The notes beneath the pieces were generated by a model. That model searched no databases, was not told the DNA's origin, and saw only the letters and a list, made by a program, of their open reading frames with translations. From positions 1-59,049 of the IMG/VR virus record IMGVR_UViG_3300035145_003654: a stretch of DNA of 59,049 nucleotides; one strand, given 5' to 3'. The position numbers and the translations under genes are program-made. This document shows, piece by piece, positions 3,450-43,901 of this stretch (position 1 is the stretch's first letter; each line of letters starts with the position of its first letter). The stretch is from a virus.

Positions 3450-4243
3450 TGAAAGTATCACACGAAATACCATTCGCATATTTAGAGCAAAGTCTTAAGT
3501 TTAACGACTATGACTATTTGCTCCCACATTTGTATGACGAATACGAAGAATATAGAGAGTTTTTTCAAAGGGAAAACAAACAATTCCGACGTTACATTGT
3601 AATGGATAATTCACTCCACGAGCTAGGAGTACCTTACTCGAAAGGTAGAATGATTTCTATTATTGAGGAAGTAAAACCTGATGAATTTATAGTACCAGAT
3701 GCCTGGGAAGATGCTGTTCAATCTATGCGGCAAGCAAAAGAATGGAGCTTTATAGAATTACCTAAAGGGGTAGAAAAAGTAGCAGTTGTACAAGGTAAAT
3801 CGTTTGATGAGGTAGTAAAGTGTTATCAAACGTATAAGTGGTTAGGTTATAATAAGATTGCATTTAGTTATGGTGCTAGCTATTATAACGATGTATTTCC
3901 CCATCGTAATAAGGATGTAGGTAAAGCATTAGGTCGCCAATTGGTCATCAGTAAAATGATTAACATGGGGCTTATTGGACACACTGATAGAATTCATCTC
4001 TTAGGTTGTTCCCTTCCACAAGAGTTTTTATATTATAAAGATGTTAAACAAATTGAAAGTATTGATACTTCAAATCCTGTAATGGCAGCTTTTGATGGGG
4101 TAACATATCATCCTAATCACGGGTTGGATTCTAAACCTAAAACAAAGATTGATGAGGTTATAAATTCACCTTTTGATGAACAGATAGCAGAAAAAATAGA
4201 TTATAACGCAACATATTTTAAATTATTAAATAACATATTATGA
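3449..4243 (+). CDS. dpdA: DpdA-like DNA 7-deazaguanine transglycosylase
   Basis: The predicted role is swapping guanine in phage DNA for a 7-deazaguanine base, by analogy with tRNA-guanine transglycosylase. The 264-residue protein fits a TIM barrel: MDNS at 52-55, VVQGKSFDE about 113-121, a barrel strand KIAFSYGASY about 136-145, RIHLLGCSL about 181-189, and IDTSNP at 205-210 holding a candidate nucleophilic Asp. It overlaps queC by 4 bases and is cotranscribed with queC, queD and queE, the makers of preQ0, which is the strongest support. A tRNA-acting TGT is less likely: it lacks the usual TGT length and its C-terminal zinc site. The DpdA subfamily cannot be fixed by eye. Confidence 0.8.
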   Translation: MKVSHEIPFAYLEQSLKFNDYDYLLPHLYDEYEEYREFFQRENKQFRRYIVMDNSLHELGVPYSKGRMISIIEEVKPDEFIVPDAWEDAVQSMRQAKEWSFIELPKGVEKVAVVQGKSFDEVVKCYQTYKWLGYNKIAFSYGASYYNDVFPHRNKDVGKALGRQLVISKMINMGLIGHTDRIHLLGCSLPQEFLYYKDVKQIESIDTSNPVMAAFDGVTYHPNHGLDSKPKTKIDEVINSPFDEQIAEKIDYNATYFKLLNNIL

Positions 4244-5037
4244 AAAAACAAGCAGTATTGTCACTGAGTGGAGGTATGGACAGCTCCACAGTGTTACTTC
4301 ATCTACTCGCCAATGGCTATGAAGTGACGGCACTGTCTTTTGATTACGGACAAAAACACAGGGTTGAACTTGATCGAGCCCAATCATTAGTTAATTATCT
4401 TAATAGTAATGGGCAAAATGTAAAATACGGAACTATTAAACTTGATGGTTTAGCTCCTATGCTTAATAGCGCCCTTGTAGAAGGAGGTGATGAAGTACCT
4501 GAAGGTCACTATGAACAGGAAAACATGAAGGAAACAGTTGTTCCTAACCGTAATAAAATTTTCTCATCACTAATCCAAGCTGTAGCATTATCAATAGCAA
4601 ATGAAAAAAATACTGAAGTACATATCGCGATGGGTATTCACGCAGGTGACCATGCTATATATCCCGATTGCAGACAAGAATTTAGAGACGCTGACTATAC
4701 AGCCTTCACCGAAGGCAATTGGGACGCTGAGCGCGTTAGCTATATTACCCCTTATCTTAATGGCGACAAGTTTGATATACTGCGAGATGGTATGGACGCC
4801 TGTGGGCGATTGGGATTATCATTTAACGAAGTTTATAAACGTACAAATACTAGCTATAAGCCCATTAATATTGGTGATGAGTGGTTTAGTGATTATAAAT
4901 CGGCTTCTTCGGTCGAACGCGTCGAAGCGTTTATCAAACTTGGCCAACCGGATCCTGTCGAATATGCTGATGAGACTGGACCCGTGGGATGGGATATTGT
5001 AAAAAATCATGTTGAACAAGTTTTAGCTGAAGCCTAA
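4240..5037 (+). CDS. queC: 7-cyano-7-deazaguanine (preQ0) synthase QueC, lacking zinc cysteines
   Basis: QueC converts 7-carboxy-7-deazaguanine to preQ0 using ATP and ammonia. The 265-residue protein has the PP-loop SGGMDSS (residues 10-16), VPNRN (101-105) and the GIHAGDHAIYPDCRQEF substrate segment (about 132-148). In ordinary QueC the C-terminal part carries four zinc-binding Cys (S-C-Y ... C-x2-C-x2-C-x2-R). Here the same stretch reads TSY (204-206) and DYKSASSVER (218-227), so every Cys has been replaced, mainly by Ser. The rest is conserved, so the enzyme may fold without zinc. It overlaps dpdA by 4 bases and queD by 1. Confidence 0.9.
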   Translation: MKKQAVLSLSGGMDSSTVLLHLLANGYEVTALSFDYGQKHRVELDRAQSLVNYLNSNGQNVKYGTIKLDGLAPMLNSALVEGGDEVPEGHYEQENMKETVVPNRNKIFSSLIQAVALSIANEKNTEVHIAMGIHAGDHAIYPDCRQEFRDADYTAFTEGNWDAERVSYITPYLNGDKFDILRDGMDACGRLGLSFNEVYKRTNTSYKPINIGDEWFSDYKSASSVERVEAFIKLGQPDPVEYADETGPVGWDIVKNHVEQVLAEA

Positions 5038-5495
5038 TGTTTATCTCAACTAAAATATTTGATGGATTTAGCTGTGTGTTTCGTCAGTGGAAAGCTGAAG
5101 GAACACACTGCCGATTCCTCCATGGTTACGGAATCTCGTTTAAAGTATGGTTTAAAGGAGAATTAGACGAACGTAATTGGGTTTGGGATTTTGGTGGTAT
5201 GAAACGTGCTAAAACCGAAATTGATGGTATGAGTCCTAAAATGTGGATGGATCACATGTTTGATCACACTATGCTTGTAGCAGTAGATGATCCATTTTTA
5301 GAATCATTTAGACGAATGGATGAAGCTGGGGTAGTCCAACTTAGAGAAGTCCCAGCAACTGGGGCAGAACGTTTTGCTCAGTTTATTTATGAAAAGCTTA
5401 ACAAGTTTGTATTGGAAGAAACAGATGGACGTGTTAGGGTTATGAAAGTAGAATTTAGAGAACACGGAAAAAACACAGCAATCTATGCCGAATAA
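5037..5495 (+). CDS. queD: 6-carboxy-tetrahydropterin synthase-like protein, variant metal site
   Basis: QueD turns dihydroneopterin triphosphate into 6-carboxy-tetrahydropterin, the second step to preQ0. The 152-residue protein shows HCRFLHGYG (24-32) at the position of the family's C-x3-HGH motif, WVWDFGGMK about 50-58, DHTML about 77-81 and a C-terminal VEFREHGKNTAIY. The catalytic Cys (C25) is retained, but the HGH pair reads HGY, and the first His ligand (usually in AAH) aligns with FSC, so two of three usual zinc ligands differ. C13 or H24 could substitute. Context between queC and queE makes the role secure in outline. Confidence 0.85.
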   Translation: MFISTKIFDGFSCVFRQWKAEGTHCRFLHGYGISFKVWFKGELDERNWVWDFGGMKRAKTEIDGMSPKMWMDHMFDHTMLVAVDDPFLESFRRMDEAGVVQLREVPATGAERFAQFIYEKLNKFVLEETDGRVRVMKVEFREHGKNTAIYAE

Positions 5496-6261
5496 AAGAA
5501 TAGAAGATTACGATAAAATATTACCTGTACTAGAAGTATATAGGTGTGTGCAAAGTGAGGGCTCCCGTTTTGGGCGTCCCACTATTGCTGTTAGAACAAC
5601 AGGATGTACTCACCGTTGTTGGTTTGGTGAAGGTGGATGGTGTGATTCATGGTACACTAGTATCCATCCTGAAAAAGGTACATTTTCATTTAATGACATT
5701 ATCAATATTTATGATGAGAATCCTCAAGTAAAAGAGATGATGTTAACAGGGGGTTCACCAACAATGCATCCTGCTTTAGTAAATGAACTTACTCATTTTG
5801 CCGCTGAAAGAGACATACTTATTACGATCGAAACTGAAGGATCTCACTTTGTTGAAACTGATTACCCACTTGGTCTCGTTTCTCTTAGTCCTAAGTTTTC
5901 TAACTCTGTCCCTCGTGTGGGTGTTACTACTCCCGGTGGTAAAGTTGTTGATGAAAGGTTTGTCAATCAGCATAACAAGTTTAGACTCAATTATGAGAAC
6001 ATTAAAAAAATGATGAATTTTCATAGCGATTATCACTACAAACCAGTTTGGGATGGAACTGATGAATGTTTAGCTGAAATTGAAGAGTTTAGAGTTAAAA
6101 TGAAGATCCCTAAAGCTAAAACTTATGTAATGCCTGCAGGAGATACAAGAGAAACTCTAATTGAAATGTACCCAAAGGTATTTGAAATGGTTGCTGAGCG
6201 AGGATATAATATGACTGGTCGTGATCATATTATAGCTTATAACACAGAACGAGGAGTATAA
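5485..6261 (+). CDS. queE: 7-carboxy-7-deazaguanine synthase QueE (radical SAM)
   Basis: QueE makes the deazapurine ring from 6-carboxy-tetrahydropterin using S-adenosylmethionine and a 4Fe-4S cluster. The 258-residue protein starts with EVYRCVQSEGSRFGRPT, the typical QueE entry (usually xxSIQGEG), then has GCTHRC and a third Cys in WCDSW. The cluster motif is C41-x3-C45-x7-C53, expanded from the common C-x3-C-x2-C. MLTGGSPTMHP matches the GGEP SAM-binding strand with Ser for Glu. It overlaps queD by 11 bases and is the last gene before the operon terminator. Confidence 0.88.
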   Translation: MPNKRIEDYDKILPVLEVYRCVQSEGSRFGRPTIAVRTTGCTHRCWFGEGGWCDSWYTSIHPEKGTFSFNDIINIYDENPQVKEMMLTGGSPTMHPALVNELTHFAAERDILITIETEGSHFVETDYPLGLVSLSPKFSNSVPRVGVTTPGGKVVDERFVNQHNKFRLNYENIKKMMNFHSDYHYKPVWDGTDECLAEIEEFRVKMKIPKAKTYVMPAGDTRETLIEMYPKVFEMVAERGYNMTGRDHIIAYNTERGV

Positions 6262-13081: not shown

Positions 13082-13593
13082 TGGAACAAGCAATAAGCCC
13101 TAAAGAGCTAGATATTAAAATTAAAATTCTAGCCAAGCAAATAAATGATGAACATAGAGATGACCCCACTCCTGTAGTATTAGTTTGTATACTTAATGGT
13201 GGTTTTATGTTCTTTAGTGATCTCGTAAAACAGATTAACATACCAATTGAAGTAGATTTTATTCGTTGTAAATCCTATTATGGTAGAAAACAAGGTGATT
13301 TAGTTGTTAGTAAGGATCTAGAAACCAAAATTAAAAACAAACACGTTTACCTTGTAGACGATATTTTAGATTCAGGTAATACTATGAAGGCTGTTACCAA
13401 GTTTCTATCAGTAAAGGAGCCTAAATCAGTCACCCCAGTTGTAGCAATTTATAAAGAAAGCGGGGATTTTGATAAAGTATTACATATATTGTATCAACCT
13501 ACTGATTCATTATTTGATCCTTGGTATATAGGCTATGGTATGGATGATGATAAAGGCCACAATAGAAATTTAAGTACAATTTATACAATATAA
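13081..13593 (+). CDS. hpt: Hypoxanthine (guanine) phosphoribosyltransferase
   Basis: This enzyme salvages hypoxanthine or guanine to IMP/GMP using PRPP. The 170-residue protein has LVCILNGGFMFFSDL about 33-47, VDFIRCKSYYG about 58-68 (the flexible loop) and the PRPP-binding VYLVDDILDSGNT about 93-105, all typical of bacterial Hpt. It is joined by a 1-base overlap to folE, so salvage of guanine from degraded host DNA may feed GTP into preQ0 synthesis. Confidence 0.9.
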   Translation: MEQAISPKELDIKIKILAKQINDEHRDDPTPVVLVCILNGGFMFFSDLVKQINIPIEVDFIRCKSYYGRKQGDLVVSKDLETKIKNKHVYLVDDILDSGNTMKAVTKFLSVKEPKSVTPVVAIYKESGDFDKVLHILYQPTDSLFDPWYIGYGMDDDKGHNRNLSTIYTI

Positions 13594-14288
13594 TGGAAAA
13601 TAAAAGAAGAAAGCAACACAATGATATTGAGTGTGTTCCTATCGGTTATGCAAATGGTGCAGCAATGGACCGCCCTCTTACTCCTCATGAAAAAGAGGTA
13701 ATGATTAATGAAGCAGCAGATGCTTACAGTAAATTTTTAGATGCTCTAAAGTGTGATTGGAGGAACGATCCTAATTCAATGGAAACTCCTAAACGAGTAG
13801 CTAAAGCATATGTAAACGACTTATGGGCAGGCAGATATGACGGATTTACAGATATTACGTCTTTTCCTTCTGACGGTTATGATGGTATTATCATTGAAAG
13901 GAATATTCCTCTTACTAGCATGTGCAGTCATCACCACCAAACTATTCGTGGTGTTGTGCATATTGGTTATATCGCCGGAGCCGAAGGACGAGTTATTGGA
14001 CTTTCTAAACTTAACAGAATTGTTGAGCACTTTGGACGAAGAGGAGCAATCCAAGAACAATTGACAGCAGCTATCCACCAAGGCGTAGATAAAGTGTGTG
14101 AAGGTAATTTAGGAGTTATTGTTACTGTAGTTGCTACGCACAATTGTGTTAGTTGTAGAGGTATTAAGCATGCAGGTGCTGCTATGGTTACAACTAAGGC
14201 AACTGGTGCTTTTAGAGATGATACAAACCAAGCCCGCAAAGAATTTTTTGATAGTTTAAAAATTAATAATGGCGGGCATCAAATATAA
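13593..14288 (+). CDS. folE: GTP cyclohydrolase I
   Basis: FolE opens GTP to dihydroneopterin triphosphate, the first step of both folate and preQ0 synthesis. The 231-residue protein carries SMCSHHHQTIRG (zinc Cys and His), RVIGLSKLNRIVEHFGRR, IQEQLT and HNCVSCRG (second zinc Cys), so the active site looks complete. It supplies the missing first enzyme of the dpdA-queC-queD-queE cluster 7 kb upstream. The N-terminal extension is ordinary in length. Confidence 0.95.
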   Translation: MENKRRKQHNDIECVPIGYANGAAMDRPLTPHEKEVMINEAADAYSKFLDALKCDWRNDPNSMETPKRVAKAYVNDLWAGRYDGFTDITSFPSDGYDGIIIERNIPLTSMCSHHHQTIRGVVHIGYIAGAEGRVIGLSKLNRIVEHFGRRGAIQEQLTAAIHQGVDKVCEGNLGVIVTVVATHNCVSCRGIKHAGAAMVTTKATGAFRDDTNQARKEFFDSLKINNGGHQI

Positions 14289-41087: not shown

Positions 41088-41346
41088 ATCAGTAACCATA
41101 AATGAAGCTATGAGGGTTATGTCTGATGAGGACTTAACCTTCATAGCAACATATTACCCTATGATGCTCCAGGGGATGTGTTTAATGGCTACTTTAGAAA
41201 ATCAATTAGAAATAGAAGGTAAGGCTAGTAATCCTCCCGTCATTTTGAAAACGAGGAAATCCGAAAATTGGTTTGTATATTTACGACGAAGATTTAAGGA
41301 ATGGCTATTTTCAAGGTTATTAAAGACGGAGTCGAAGAAACGGTAA
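41074..41346 (+). CDS. Small unrecognised protein
   Basis: From ATG 41074 it has 90 residues: an acidic N-terminus, a hydrophobic helix (LTFIATYYPMMLQGMCLMATL) and a basic end (YLRRRFKEWLFSRLLK). A class promoter for the next gene lies inside its 3' half. Confidence 0.55.
   Translation: MENFESVTINEAMRVMSDEDLTFIATYYPMMLQGMCLMATLENQLEIEGKASNPPVILKTRKSENWFVYLRRRFKEWLFSRLLKTESKKR
41228..41283 (+). promoter_or_regulatory. GTCAT-class promoter, variant with 21-base spacer
   Basis: GTAAT (41228-41232), 6 bases, GTCAT (41239-41243), 7 bases, ACGA at the -33 position, then TATATTTA at 41276-41283. Spacing to the -7 element is 21, one more than in the other members. It precedes the ATG at 41301. Confidence 0.5.
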
Positions 41347-41729
41347 TCCAAGACTCTACTCAATTTAGCTATAAACCCGACGGAAAAACTAAATTCTACG
41401 CTGTGCAAAGGGTTAAGTATAAACAGGATTCATGGATGCCCCCCACATTTGTAAACATAGGTGGTAAAAAATATTTGATGCCTAAGTGGGTTGAGGTACA
41501 TTCCCAAGCACAGCTTAGTGATGTTATTTGGGAAAAACCCAAATTGGAGGTTAAGCAACCTGAAATGGTAGTTAGGGAATTTACTTCTAAGAGTAATCCT
41601 GATATTACCTATGAGGCACGTAAAGTGACTTTGCCCACTGGAAAAATTACATTTAGTTGTAATTGTCCTGGTGTTTGGAGATCGAAAACTAGAGAGTGTA
41701 AGCATATTAAAGAGCTAAAAAATGCGTAA
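41301..41729 (+). CDS. SWIM-type zinc finger protein
   Basis: This 142-residue protein ends with FSCNCPGVWRSKTRECKHIKEL, the C-x-C-x(n)-C-x-H pattern of SWIM zinc fingers, which bind DNA or protein. The N-terminal part is beta-rich with a Trp/Pro segment (SWMPPTFVNIGG). Function unknown. It overlaps the next gene by 8 bases. Confidence 0.65.
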   Translation: MAIFKVIKDGVEETVIQDSTQFSYKPDGKTKFYAVQRVKYKQDSWMPPTFVNIGGKKYLMPKWVEVHSQAQLSDVIWEKPKLEVKQPEMVVREFTSKSNPDITYEARKVTLPTGKITFSCNCPGVWRSKTRECKHIKELKNA

Positions 41730-42446: not shown

Positions 42447-42532
42447 GCCGCTGTGGTGGAATAGGTAGACACGACAGACTTAAAATCTGTTTCGCCGAAT
42501 GGTGAGTGCCGGTTCGATCCCGGCCAGCGGTA
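42447..42532 (+). tRNA. tRNA-Leu (anticodon UAA)
   Basis: Acceptor GCCGCTG pairs with CAGCGGT (first pair G-U). The anticodon stem ACAGA/TCTGT holds loop CTTAAAA, anticodon TAA. The long variable arm is expected for Leu. CCA is not encoded. Confidence 0.95.
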
Positions 42533-42541
42533 CAAAAGCAT

Positions 42542-42616
42542 GCCCTCGTAGCTCAGTTGGATTAGAGCAACAGCCTTCTAAGCTGTGGGTCACAGGTTCG
42601 AATCCTGTCGGGGGTA
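42542..42616 (+). tRNA. tRNA-Arg (anticodon UCU)
   Basis: Acceptor GCCCTCG/CGGGGGT, anticodon stem ACAGC/GCTGT, loop CTTCTAA, anticodon TCT reading AGA. T arm ACAGG TTCGAAT CCTGT is intact. Confidence 0.95.
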
Positions 42617-42689
42617 CTAGGTTCTTTACTTACTGGAATAAATAACATTCGCTGATGACGCCACTGCGTAATAAATGGCGCACCAATAT

Positions 42690-42763
42690 GGGAACGTAGC
42701 TCAATTGGTTAGAGCATCAAGCTTATATCTTGGAGGTCGCAGGTTCGATTCCTGCCGTTCCTA
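42690..42763 (+). tRNA. tRNA-Ile (anticodon UAU)
   Basis: Acceptor GGGAACG/CGTTCCT, anticodon stem TCAAG/CTTGG, loop CTTATAT, anticodon TAT, for the rare AUA codon. The anticodon is genomic UAU rather than a CAU read by TilS, so AUA is read directly. Confidence 0.93.
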
Positions 42764-42764
42764 C

Positions 42765-43109
42765 AAATGAAGGAAACCCCACCGCGCTGATCACGCACGG
42801 GGGGGTATGACTGAATGTGTCCCTCGCTTAGGGGGATAAAGTACACATGCTAATAGGTAGCTCGACTTACAGCAAGCGCTGTAGGGGGTGAAAGCCCAGT
42901 GTGGGCCTATTCAGTGTGTGGTTGTGCGATGTGGAAATAAATTTCTACTAAGCGATATTGTGAACTTCAATTGGGGTTAGCAGCCATGAAGTGAAATGAT
43001 TAATGGGATGCGGGTTTAACACTCCTCTTGTGCCATTATGATTTACCAATACAACCGCCTGCTAGTCGCGCTTAAGAGCCTGAATAACTCTTTACCCATT
43101 CCTTCATTT
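42765..43109 (+). ncRNA. Large structured RNA, about 345 nt, unassigned
   Basis: This segment has no credible open frame and lies between tRNA-Ile and tRNA-Lys. A perfect 11-bp helix closes it: AAATGAAGGAA (42765-42775) with TTCCTTCATTT (43099-43109). Internal helices read directly include ACTGAAT with ATTCAGT enclosing TGTGT/ACACA, and AATAGG/CCTATT enclosing TACAGC/GCTGTA and GCCCA/TGGGC. Further ones are GTGGAAAT/ATTTCTAC, ACTTCA/TGAAGT and AAGAG/CTCTT. It does not show the tmRNA tag or RNase P signatures I would look for. GOLLD and ROOL are other large RNAs found near phage tRNAs, but both are longer. Class unknown. Confidence 0.75.
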
Positions 43110-43112
43110 TAT

Positions 43113-43186
43113 GATCCCGTAGCTCAGCTGGTTAGAGCATCTCACTTTTAATGAGAGGGTCCTGGGTTCGAGTCCCAGCGGGATCA
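43113..43186 (+). tRNA. tRNA-Lys (anticodon UUU)
   Basis: Acceptor GATCCCG/CGGGATC, anticodon stem TCTCA/TGAGA, loop CTTTTAA, anticodon TTT reading AAA. Confidence 0.95.
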
Positions 43187-43207
43187 CAGCGTGTGAGGCG
43201 AATGCAA

Positions 43208-43281
43208 GCCACTATAGCTCAGTTGGCTAGAGCAGCTGATTTGTAATCAGCAGGTCGCGGGTTCGAATCCTGCTAGTGGCT
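43208..43281 (+). tRNA. tRNA-Thr (anticodon UGU)
   Basis: Acceptor GCCACTA/TAGTGGC, anticodon stem GCTGA/TCAGC, loop TTTGTAA, anticodon TGT reading ACA. Confidence 0.95.
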
Positions 43282-43301
43282 CAACCCTTAGTCTAATATG
43301 G

Positions 43302-43381
43302 GAGACTCGGCCCCTATAAGCCGAAAATATAGGGTCTCAGTGGTCCGACGAGATACCAGACGGACAAGTCCTCACTGCTGA
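43302..43381 (+). ncRNA. Small structured RNA with an apparent H-type pseudoknot
   Basis: This element fills the 110-base gap between tRNA-Thr and tRNA-Pro. CGGC (43308-43311) pairs with GCCG (43320-43323). CCCTATA (43312-43318), inside that loop, pairs with TATAGGG (43328-43334), giving an H-type pseudoknot with an AAAA crossing loop. GAGA/TCTC (43302-43305, 43335-43338) closes it. A second hairpin follows: CAGTG with CACTG, and TCCG with CGGA. No open frame. Function unknown. Confidence 0.55.
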
Positions 43382-43392
43382 GTGGGGCAATA

Positions 43393-43465
43393 CGGAATAT
43401 GGCGCAGTTGGTAGCGCACCTGCTTTGGGAGCAGGGGGCCGCAGGTTCGAGTCCTGCTATTCCGA
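43393..43465 (+). tRNA. tRNA-Pro (anticodon UGG)
   Basis: Acceptor CGGAATA/TATTCCG, anticodon stem CCTGC/GCAGG, loop TTTGGGA, anticodon TGG reading CCA. Confidence 0.94.
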
Positions 43466-43482
43466 CCTGAAGACTGCGTGTA

Positions 43483-43556
43483 GCTCCCTTAGCTCAGTTG
43501 GTTAGAGCATCTGACTGTTAATCAGAGGGTCCCTGGTTCGAGCCCAGGAGGGAGCG
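43483..43556 (+). tRNA. tRNA-Asn (anticodon GUU)
   Basis: Acceptor GCTCCCT/AGGGAGC with G discriminator, anticodon stem TCTGA/TCAGA, loop CTGTTAA, anticodon GTT. Confidence 0.95.
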
Positions 43557-43559
43557 CTA

Positions 43560-43601: not shown

Positions 43602-43901
43602 ATGGAAGTATTATTTTACAGTTTAGGTGTGCTTACAGTTGCATTCTTATATGCAGTTGTGAGTGTGTTTAAGTTAAATAAAAAAATAGATTATTTAGAA
43701 AACGTAGTTGAAGAACACAAAAGGCAAACAAATATAGAATATAATGAAATCTATAGAGAAATGGACATTAGAATAAATGATCACGCCACCCAACCACTTA
43801 GGGAAACGAATGAAAATGTGGCACGTGAAGTAGAGGATATTTATCGTATGGTAGATTCTCGTATAGATAAATTAGAAGACCGTTTAACAAAAAATAGCTA
43901 A
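43602..43901 (+). CDS. Membrane-anchored coiled-coil protein inside the tRNA array
   Basis: This 99-residue protein has an N-terminal membrane span (about 4-24, LFYSLGVLTVAFLYAVVSVF) and a long charged coiled coil to the end. No family recognised; the layout also resembles small spanin-like or scaffold proteins. It is set between tRNA-Asn and tRNA-Val and framed by a 13-bp inverted repeat. Confidence 0.7.
   Translation: MEVLFYSLGVLTVAFLYAVVSVFKLNKKIDYLENVVEEHKRQTNIEYNEIYREMDIRINDHATQPLRETNENVAREVEDIYRMVDSRIDKLEDRLTKNS

Follow-up and report, generated by a model that had tools for sequence, protein, structure and literature searches.

A conserved structured RNA in a phage tRNA array with a 5′ domain resembling manA RNA

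In a proposal that dates from 2010, manA RNA was described as a riboswitch candidate that lies in presumed 5′ UTRs of metabolic genes (PMC2864571). Rfam types the family as Cis-reg. GOLLD and ROOL are structured phage RNAs found beside tRNA islands (PMC12286853). Here, we describe a structured RNA of about 345 nt that occupies a tRNA array in the window, by which we mean the whole stretch of 59,049 nt of viral DNA analyzed (IMG/VR virus record IMGVR_UViG_3300035145_003654). We compare this RNA with manA.

At Rfam's own thresholds, nine tRNAs and nothing else were detected in the window. A sequence-only reading had placed a non-coding RNA between tRNA-Ile and tRNA-Lys and had bounded it by an exact 11-bp helix. 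The interval 42765-43109 was correct. ARAGORN ended tRNA-Ile at 42764 and started tRNA-Lys at 43113; the pairing of AAATGAAGGAA (42765-42775) with TTCCTTCATTT (43099-43109) was also exact. The tRNAs on either side are all on the + strand. The interval is crossed by short ORFs only, and the first downstream ORF of fair size starts at 43602, four tRNAs further on. A coding role was dropped, since the interval holds just short ORFs and covarying helices. Inside the tRNA array, from 42447 to 43557, neither a promoter-like site nor a credible terminator was found; the sole terminator-like match lies inside tRNA-Thr.

Homologues were retrieved from IMG/VR contigs by a search with the neighboring 142-aa protein (41301-41726) and by a 14-base pattern, and these contigs carry the same tRNA array. 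Five distinct RNA sequences were obtained (the window; L004/L005/L007; L006; L009; L084), all of them between tRNA-Ile(tat) and tRNA-Lys(ttt). The four distinct homologues are 84-96% identical to the window RNA, and long unpaired or loop stretches are unchanged even at 84% overall identity. In the relative L003, which has the same array, only about 10 nt separate tRNA-Ile from tRNA-Lys. Since L003 does without the RNA, the RNA is a discrete optional module and not a required spacer. No useful match was obtained by blastn against phage and plasmid records. Exact patterns of 14 and 16 bases returned, homologues aside, mostly chance matches.

The + strand folds with a minimum free energy of -114.1 kcal/mol, compared with -99.3 ± 5.1 kcal/mol in dinucleotide shuffles (z = -2.9). 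Since the value for the - strand is similar (z = -3.8), the strand was not chosen by folding energy alone. The + orientation was assigned because the neighboring tRNAs are on the + strand and because the manA-like sequence is shared. The proposed structure contains 69 pairs in 11 helices, counted on the alignment of the five sequences (Table 1). In this alignment, 99.7% of the cells were paired, and only 37-53% after the partners were slid by 1-3 columns. Changes on both sides of a pair were observed in 7 pairs, against a mean of 2.4 in shuffled alignments (1 of 500 was as high) and 0 in the slid versions. These compensatory changes are located in P2, P3, P3a, P3b, P6 and P7 (two pairs in P7). 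P0, P1, P5, P7a and the closing stem are invariant, and covariation neither backs nor contradicts them. The P0/P1/Pc/P2/P3/3′ architecture is shown by conservation and in part by covariation, and the presence of a real and conserved structured RNA in the phage tRNA array is confirmed.

The closing stem Pc (GGGUA/UACCC) is nested within P0. RNAalifold recovered most of the proposed helices, but favored an ACCCC/GGGGU pairing beside P1 over GGGUA/UACCC. These two pairings are mutually exclusive, as the GGGG strand is common to both, with ACCCC lying upstream. The RNA may switch between them.

Table 1. Positions of the RNA, its helices and the flanking tRNA genes in the window, with manA loci in a comparable setting
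Feature	Position or locus	Strand	Observation
Whole structured RNA, ~345 nt	42765-43109	+	Fills the tRNA-Ile/tRNA-Lys spacer; folds better than shuffles; four distinct homologues occupy this position
tRNA-Ile(tat)	42690-42764	+	Ends immediately 5′ of the RNA (ARAGORN)
tRNA-Lys(ttt)	43113-43187	+	Begins 3 nt past the RNA (ARAGORN)
P0 outer helix, 5′ strand AAATGAAGGAA	42765-42775	+	Exact complement of 43099-43109; unchanged in all five sequences
P0 outer helix, 3′ strand TTCCTTCATTT	43099-43109	+	Pairs with 42765-42775
P1 hairpin, loop CUGAUCA at 42787-42793	42782-42800	+	Loop common to many manA RNAs
Closing stem Pc, 5′ strand GGGTA	42803-42807	+	Complement of 43093-43097; GGGAG or GGGTG in manA
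Closing stem Pc, 3′ strand TACCC	43093-43097	+	CTCCC or CACCC in manA
UGACUGAAU	42808-42816	+	Most conserved sequence of manA
P2 hairpin followed by UAAAGU, manA-like	42820-42842	+	Compensatory change C-G to U-A in homologues
P3 multibranch helix AATAGG/CCTATT	42852-42911	+	Holds P3a and P3b; compensatory changes
P3a hairpin	42866-42885	+	Within P3; compensatory change
P3b hairpin	42886-42897	+	Within P3; compensatory change
P5 helix ACTTCA..TGG/CCA..TGAAGT	42964-42992	+	Invariant in every homologue, hence without covariation evidence
P6 helix	43002-43037	+	One compensatory pair, U-A to C-G in L084
P7a and P7 hairpins	43056-43092	+	P7: AAGAG/CTCTT replaced in L006 by AAAGG/CCTTT (two compensatory pairs)
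Canonical manA between two tRNA genes, cyanophage-like contigs	L197, L210, L184, L212, L252, L268, L289		

No Rfam family reached its gathering score at 42765-43109. In a relaxed search, the only notable match was manA (RF01745), with 18.6 bits and E = 0.0097 for 348 nt; it covered the model from end to end. The homologue L009 scored 13.6 bits, and L084 gave no manA match in Rfam. The 5′ half carries this match, with about 110 nt at the 5′ end resembling manA, and the Rfam alignment breaks down on the 3′ side. Thus, the sequence-only statement that nothing known matches held at the gathering scores and missed this sub-threshold relation.

As in manA, a hairpin with a YUGAUCA-type loop (CUGAUCA in the window) precedes the closing strand. 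GGGNN-UGACUGAAU follows, then the P2 hairpin with UAANGU (UAAAGU in the window; CAAAGU in L084), a multibranch P3 and a 3′ NNCCC strand that completes the GGGNN/NNCCC closing stem, which is GGGUA/UACCC in all five sequences. Among 88 manA loci, GGGAG always occurs with a downstream CUCCC (78 loci) and GGGUG with CACCC (10 loci). Like the window RNA, manA is carried by phages, and some copies lie directly between tRNAs. In contrast, the window RNA is longer (about 345 nt, compared with about 190), has an additional 11-bp outer helix, and lies between tRNAs instead of in the 5′ UTR of a protein gene, the context reported for manA. Furthermore, the conserved manA hairpins P4 (CUGUAGnAAUGCC) and P5 (GGUAnnCAGnAAUCC) are missing from its 3′ half. 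Because its score falls below the RF01745 gathering score of 55.2 bits and these two hairpins are absent, the window RNA is not a member of RF01745. The 3′ ~200 nt matched no known RNA. The suggestion of a new class of phage RNA is supported in part only. The 3′ ~200 nt have no recognized relative, but the 5′ domain bears the manA signature.

The pattern TGATCA-N(4-14)-GGGNN-TGACTGAAT gave at least 119 matches in viral contigs, of which most are true manA. The same TGATCA/GGGNN pattern matched 35 times in bacterial genomes; one of these matches is manA, and the other 34 look like chance. We prepared three models of the manA 5′ part. R1, the stricter one, was trained on isolate manA only (12 sequences of the 5′ region) and did not detect the window RNA. 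R2 (a 47-position core from 18 manA and manA-like sequences) and R3 (the manA 5′ part including P1) both excluded the window family. R2 ranked the RNA locus first in the window, with 21.6 bits and E 0.016 (the runner-up scored 10.6), and the five family members were the top five matches across 429 kb (E 0.06-1.7); with R3, the RNA locus was the sole match in the window (E 0.009) and the five family members were the only matches across 429 kb. All these E-values are rough, and the R3 training set, and partly that of R2, had been picked by patterns that the window also has, a choice that favors the window RNA. In addition, P2 of the window RNA (CCCTCGCTTAGGGG) is identical to P2 of the manA-like RNA at L458. 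From these sequence comparisons, we consider with moderate confidence that the window RNA is a distant relative of manA.

Other known RNAs that keep company with tRNAs were also compared. tmRNA is in a similar size range, but it has a tag ORF and a tRNA-like end, both absent here. ARAGORN gave tRNAs only, and Rfam gave no tmRNA match at the window RNA. RNase P RNA, 6S RNA and group I introns gave no Rfam match up to E = 10. The exclusion of these four classes in the sequence-only reading is thus upheld.

To describe the setting of manA, 90 distinct manA-like loci were fetched from viral contigs. In 11 of them, a tRNA ends directly before P1. In 7 of the 90, tRNAs lie on both sides, the next one about 190 nt downstream, so that the RNA fills the spacer as it does in the window. 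Since the next gene is then a tRNA and there is nothing to regulate, this argues against a purely cis-regulatory role. Many other loci have a sigma-70-like promoter, with the -10 hexamer about 5-10 nt before P1, and these promoter-borne copies could act as leaders. manA is widespread in marine phages, and its setting suggests that the window RNA and manA are free-standing RNAs and not gene switches. The one manA match in the bacterial genomes, L404 (NZ_RMVE01000006.1), is on a 188-kb contig in a Nonlabens xiamenensis assembly; its manA sequence matches cyanophage P-TIM40 (188.6 kb), and it is probably phage (cyanophage) contamination.

A further pattern scan yielded divergent relatives, which were scored with the manA model of Rfam. 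The scores were below the threshold with strong E-values: 53.5 bits for L458, 49.6 for L446, 48.1 for L436, 45.7 for L444, 37.8 for L228, 37.4 for L431 and 31.3 for L462. Thus, the Rfam manA model overlooks much of the family diversity. L458, L444 and L462 have, as read from the sequence, long outer helices around a UGACUGAAUAAC core. The L458 RNA lies immediately upstream of a large ORF, whose position makes it the probable portal gene. L228, L428, L431, L436 and L437 (also L434 and L460) form an IMG/VR class of RNAs of about 400 nt, sub-threshold in Rfam. Like the window RNA, this class has an outer helix, a UGACUGAAUAAC-hairpin-UAAAGUA core and a closing stem, GGGGU/ACCCC, with strands about 350 nt apart. 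It differs in that L228 and L436 carry two manA-like modules in tandem, and no tRNAs are nearby. An HMM of the L228 class found no similarity to the 3′ half of the window RNA, and the idea that the window RNA contains two modules was rejected as unsupported.

Our preferred reading, which we consider fairly probable, is that the window RNA, from a T4-like marine phage, is non-coding, structured and stand-alone; its 5′ domain would be distantly related to manA, and it would be cut from the tRNA transcript and act in trans. The RNA would share a transcript with the tRNAs of the array. A cut just behind tRNA-Ile and an RNase P cut at the 5′ end of tRNA-Lys would release an RNA of about 345 nt, whose ends would be clamped by the 11-bp P0. 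P0 encloses P1, with its CUGAUCA loop, and the GGGUA/UACCC stem, which in turn encloses P2, the branched P3 and the 3′ domain. The RNA may act in trans, as RNA or as an RNA-protein particle produced alongside the phage tRNAs, and its role would most likely be in translation or in the takeover of the host. Since a tRNA gene comes next, the RNA is not a leader that controls the following gene. The relative in a tRNA spacer and the similarly placed manA copies lead to a specific and testable prediction, namely that these RNAs are cut out, act in trans and are produced alongside phage tRNAs. A broader view is plausible but tentative: manA would be the visible part of a large superfamily of phage RNAs (canonical RNAs of about 190 nt, tandem RNAs of about 400 nt and the 345-nt tRNA-embedded RNA), whose members would be free-standing, would arise through tRNA processing or by transcription from promoters of their own, and would act in trans in infection. 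The label "cis-regulatory" would then be wrong.

The window RNA might instead belong to an unrelated new class whose 5′ resemblance to manA arose by chance or convergence. The miss by R1, the Rfam score far under the threshold, the lack of a manA match in L084 and a 3′ half that resembles neither manA P4/P5 nor the L228 class are all in its favor. However, the CUGAUCA loop, GGGNN, UGACUGAAU, a hairpin, UAAAGU, the 3′ NNCCC and the tRNA setting occur together in the right order and spacing, and P2 is shared with L458; we regard an unrelated class as unlikely. It is improbable that the RNA serves the tRNA array in cis, as a structured spacer that assists the folding, spacing or processing of the tRNAs beside it and is functionless once excised. 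Although it fills the Ile-Lys gap exactly and was found nowhere else, the L003 array manages with its ~10-nt spacer, so the RNA is dispensable for the array; moreover, long loop and unpaired regions are preserved without change in homologues as distant as 84% overall identity, and manA relatives also occur away from tRNAs, behind promoter-like sites.

A riboswitch-like cis-regulator, in line with the Rfam typing of manA, seems very unlikely here. The next fair-size ORF lies past four tRNAs, and the 7 tRNA-enclosed manA loci share this situation; the 5′ UTR proposal (PMC2864571) and the L458 RNA just upstream of its large ORF, probably the portal gene by place, speak for such a role. The chance is likewise slight that the RNA is a smaller self-assembling scaffold of the ROOL/GOLLD kind, an idea compatible with the stand-alone manA-relative reading. 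GOLLD and ROOL are, like the window RNA, structured, carried by phages and located next to tRNAs, the same kind of site (PMC12286853). In contrast, they are much larger and have different structures, and neither homology nor an Rfam match to GOLLD or ROOL was found at the window RNA.

The family B DNA polymerase gene of the phage has its best isolate match in Microcystis phage Mel-JY01 (36% identity). Other genes around the RNA encode a GroEL-like chaperonin, Hsp20, QueC, a PHO4-type phosphate transporter and a GH16 enzyme. We read the phage as a T4-like marine phage; from general gene content, our guess at the host is Bacteroidetes. QueC and a radical-SAM protein (QueE-like) are encoded in 4240-6261 and 13593-14288, along with QueD- and GTP-cyclohydrolase-like genes recognized by eye. 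Together, these genes likely represent a preQ0 or 7-deazaguanine pathway.

Further elements were observed in the array. The gap between tRNA-Thr and tRNA-Pro (43283-43392) contains a second conserved non-coding element, with a block of about 40 nt identical in L006, L007 and L009. No Rfam match was detected for it. Its hairpin arms covary (CCCTATA/TATAGGG versus TTCTATA/TATAGAA), with a folding z of only -1.0. L006, L007 and L009 possess, 3′ of tRNA-Thr, an additional tRNA-like element of about 130 nt with a T-arm-like GGGTTCGATTCCC, uncalled by ARAGORN and absent from the window. Just 5′ of tRNA-Ile, at 42645-42689, a conserved GCTGATGACGYCACTRCGT..ATGRCGCACCAATAT is present, also in L003, where the 345-nt RNA is missing. 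The two arms of a small stem in this element covary (GCCA/TGGC versus GTCA/TGAC).
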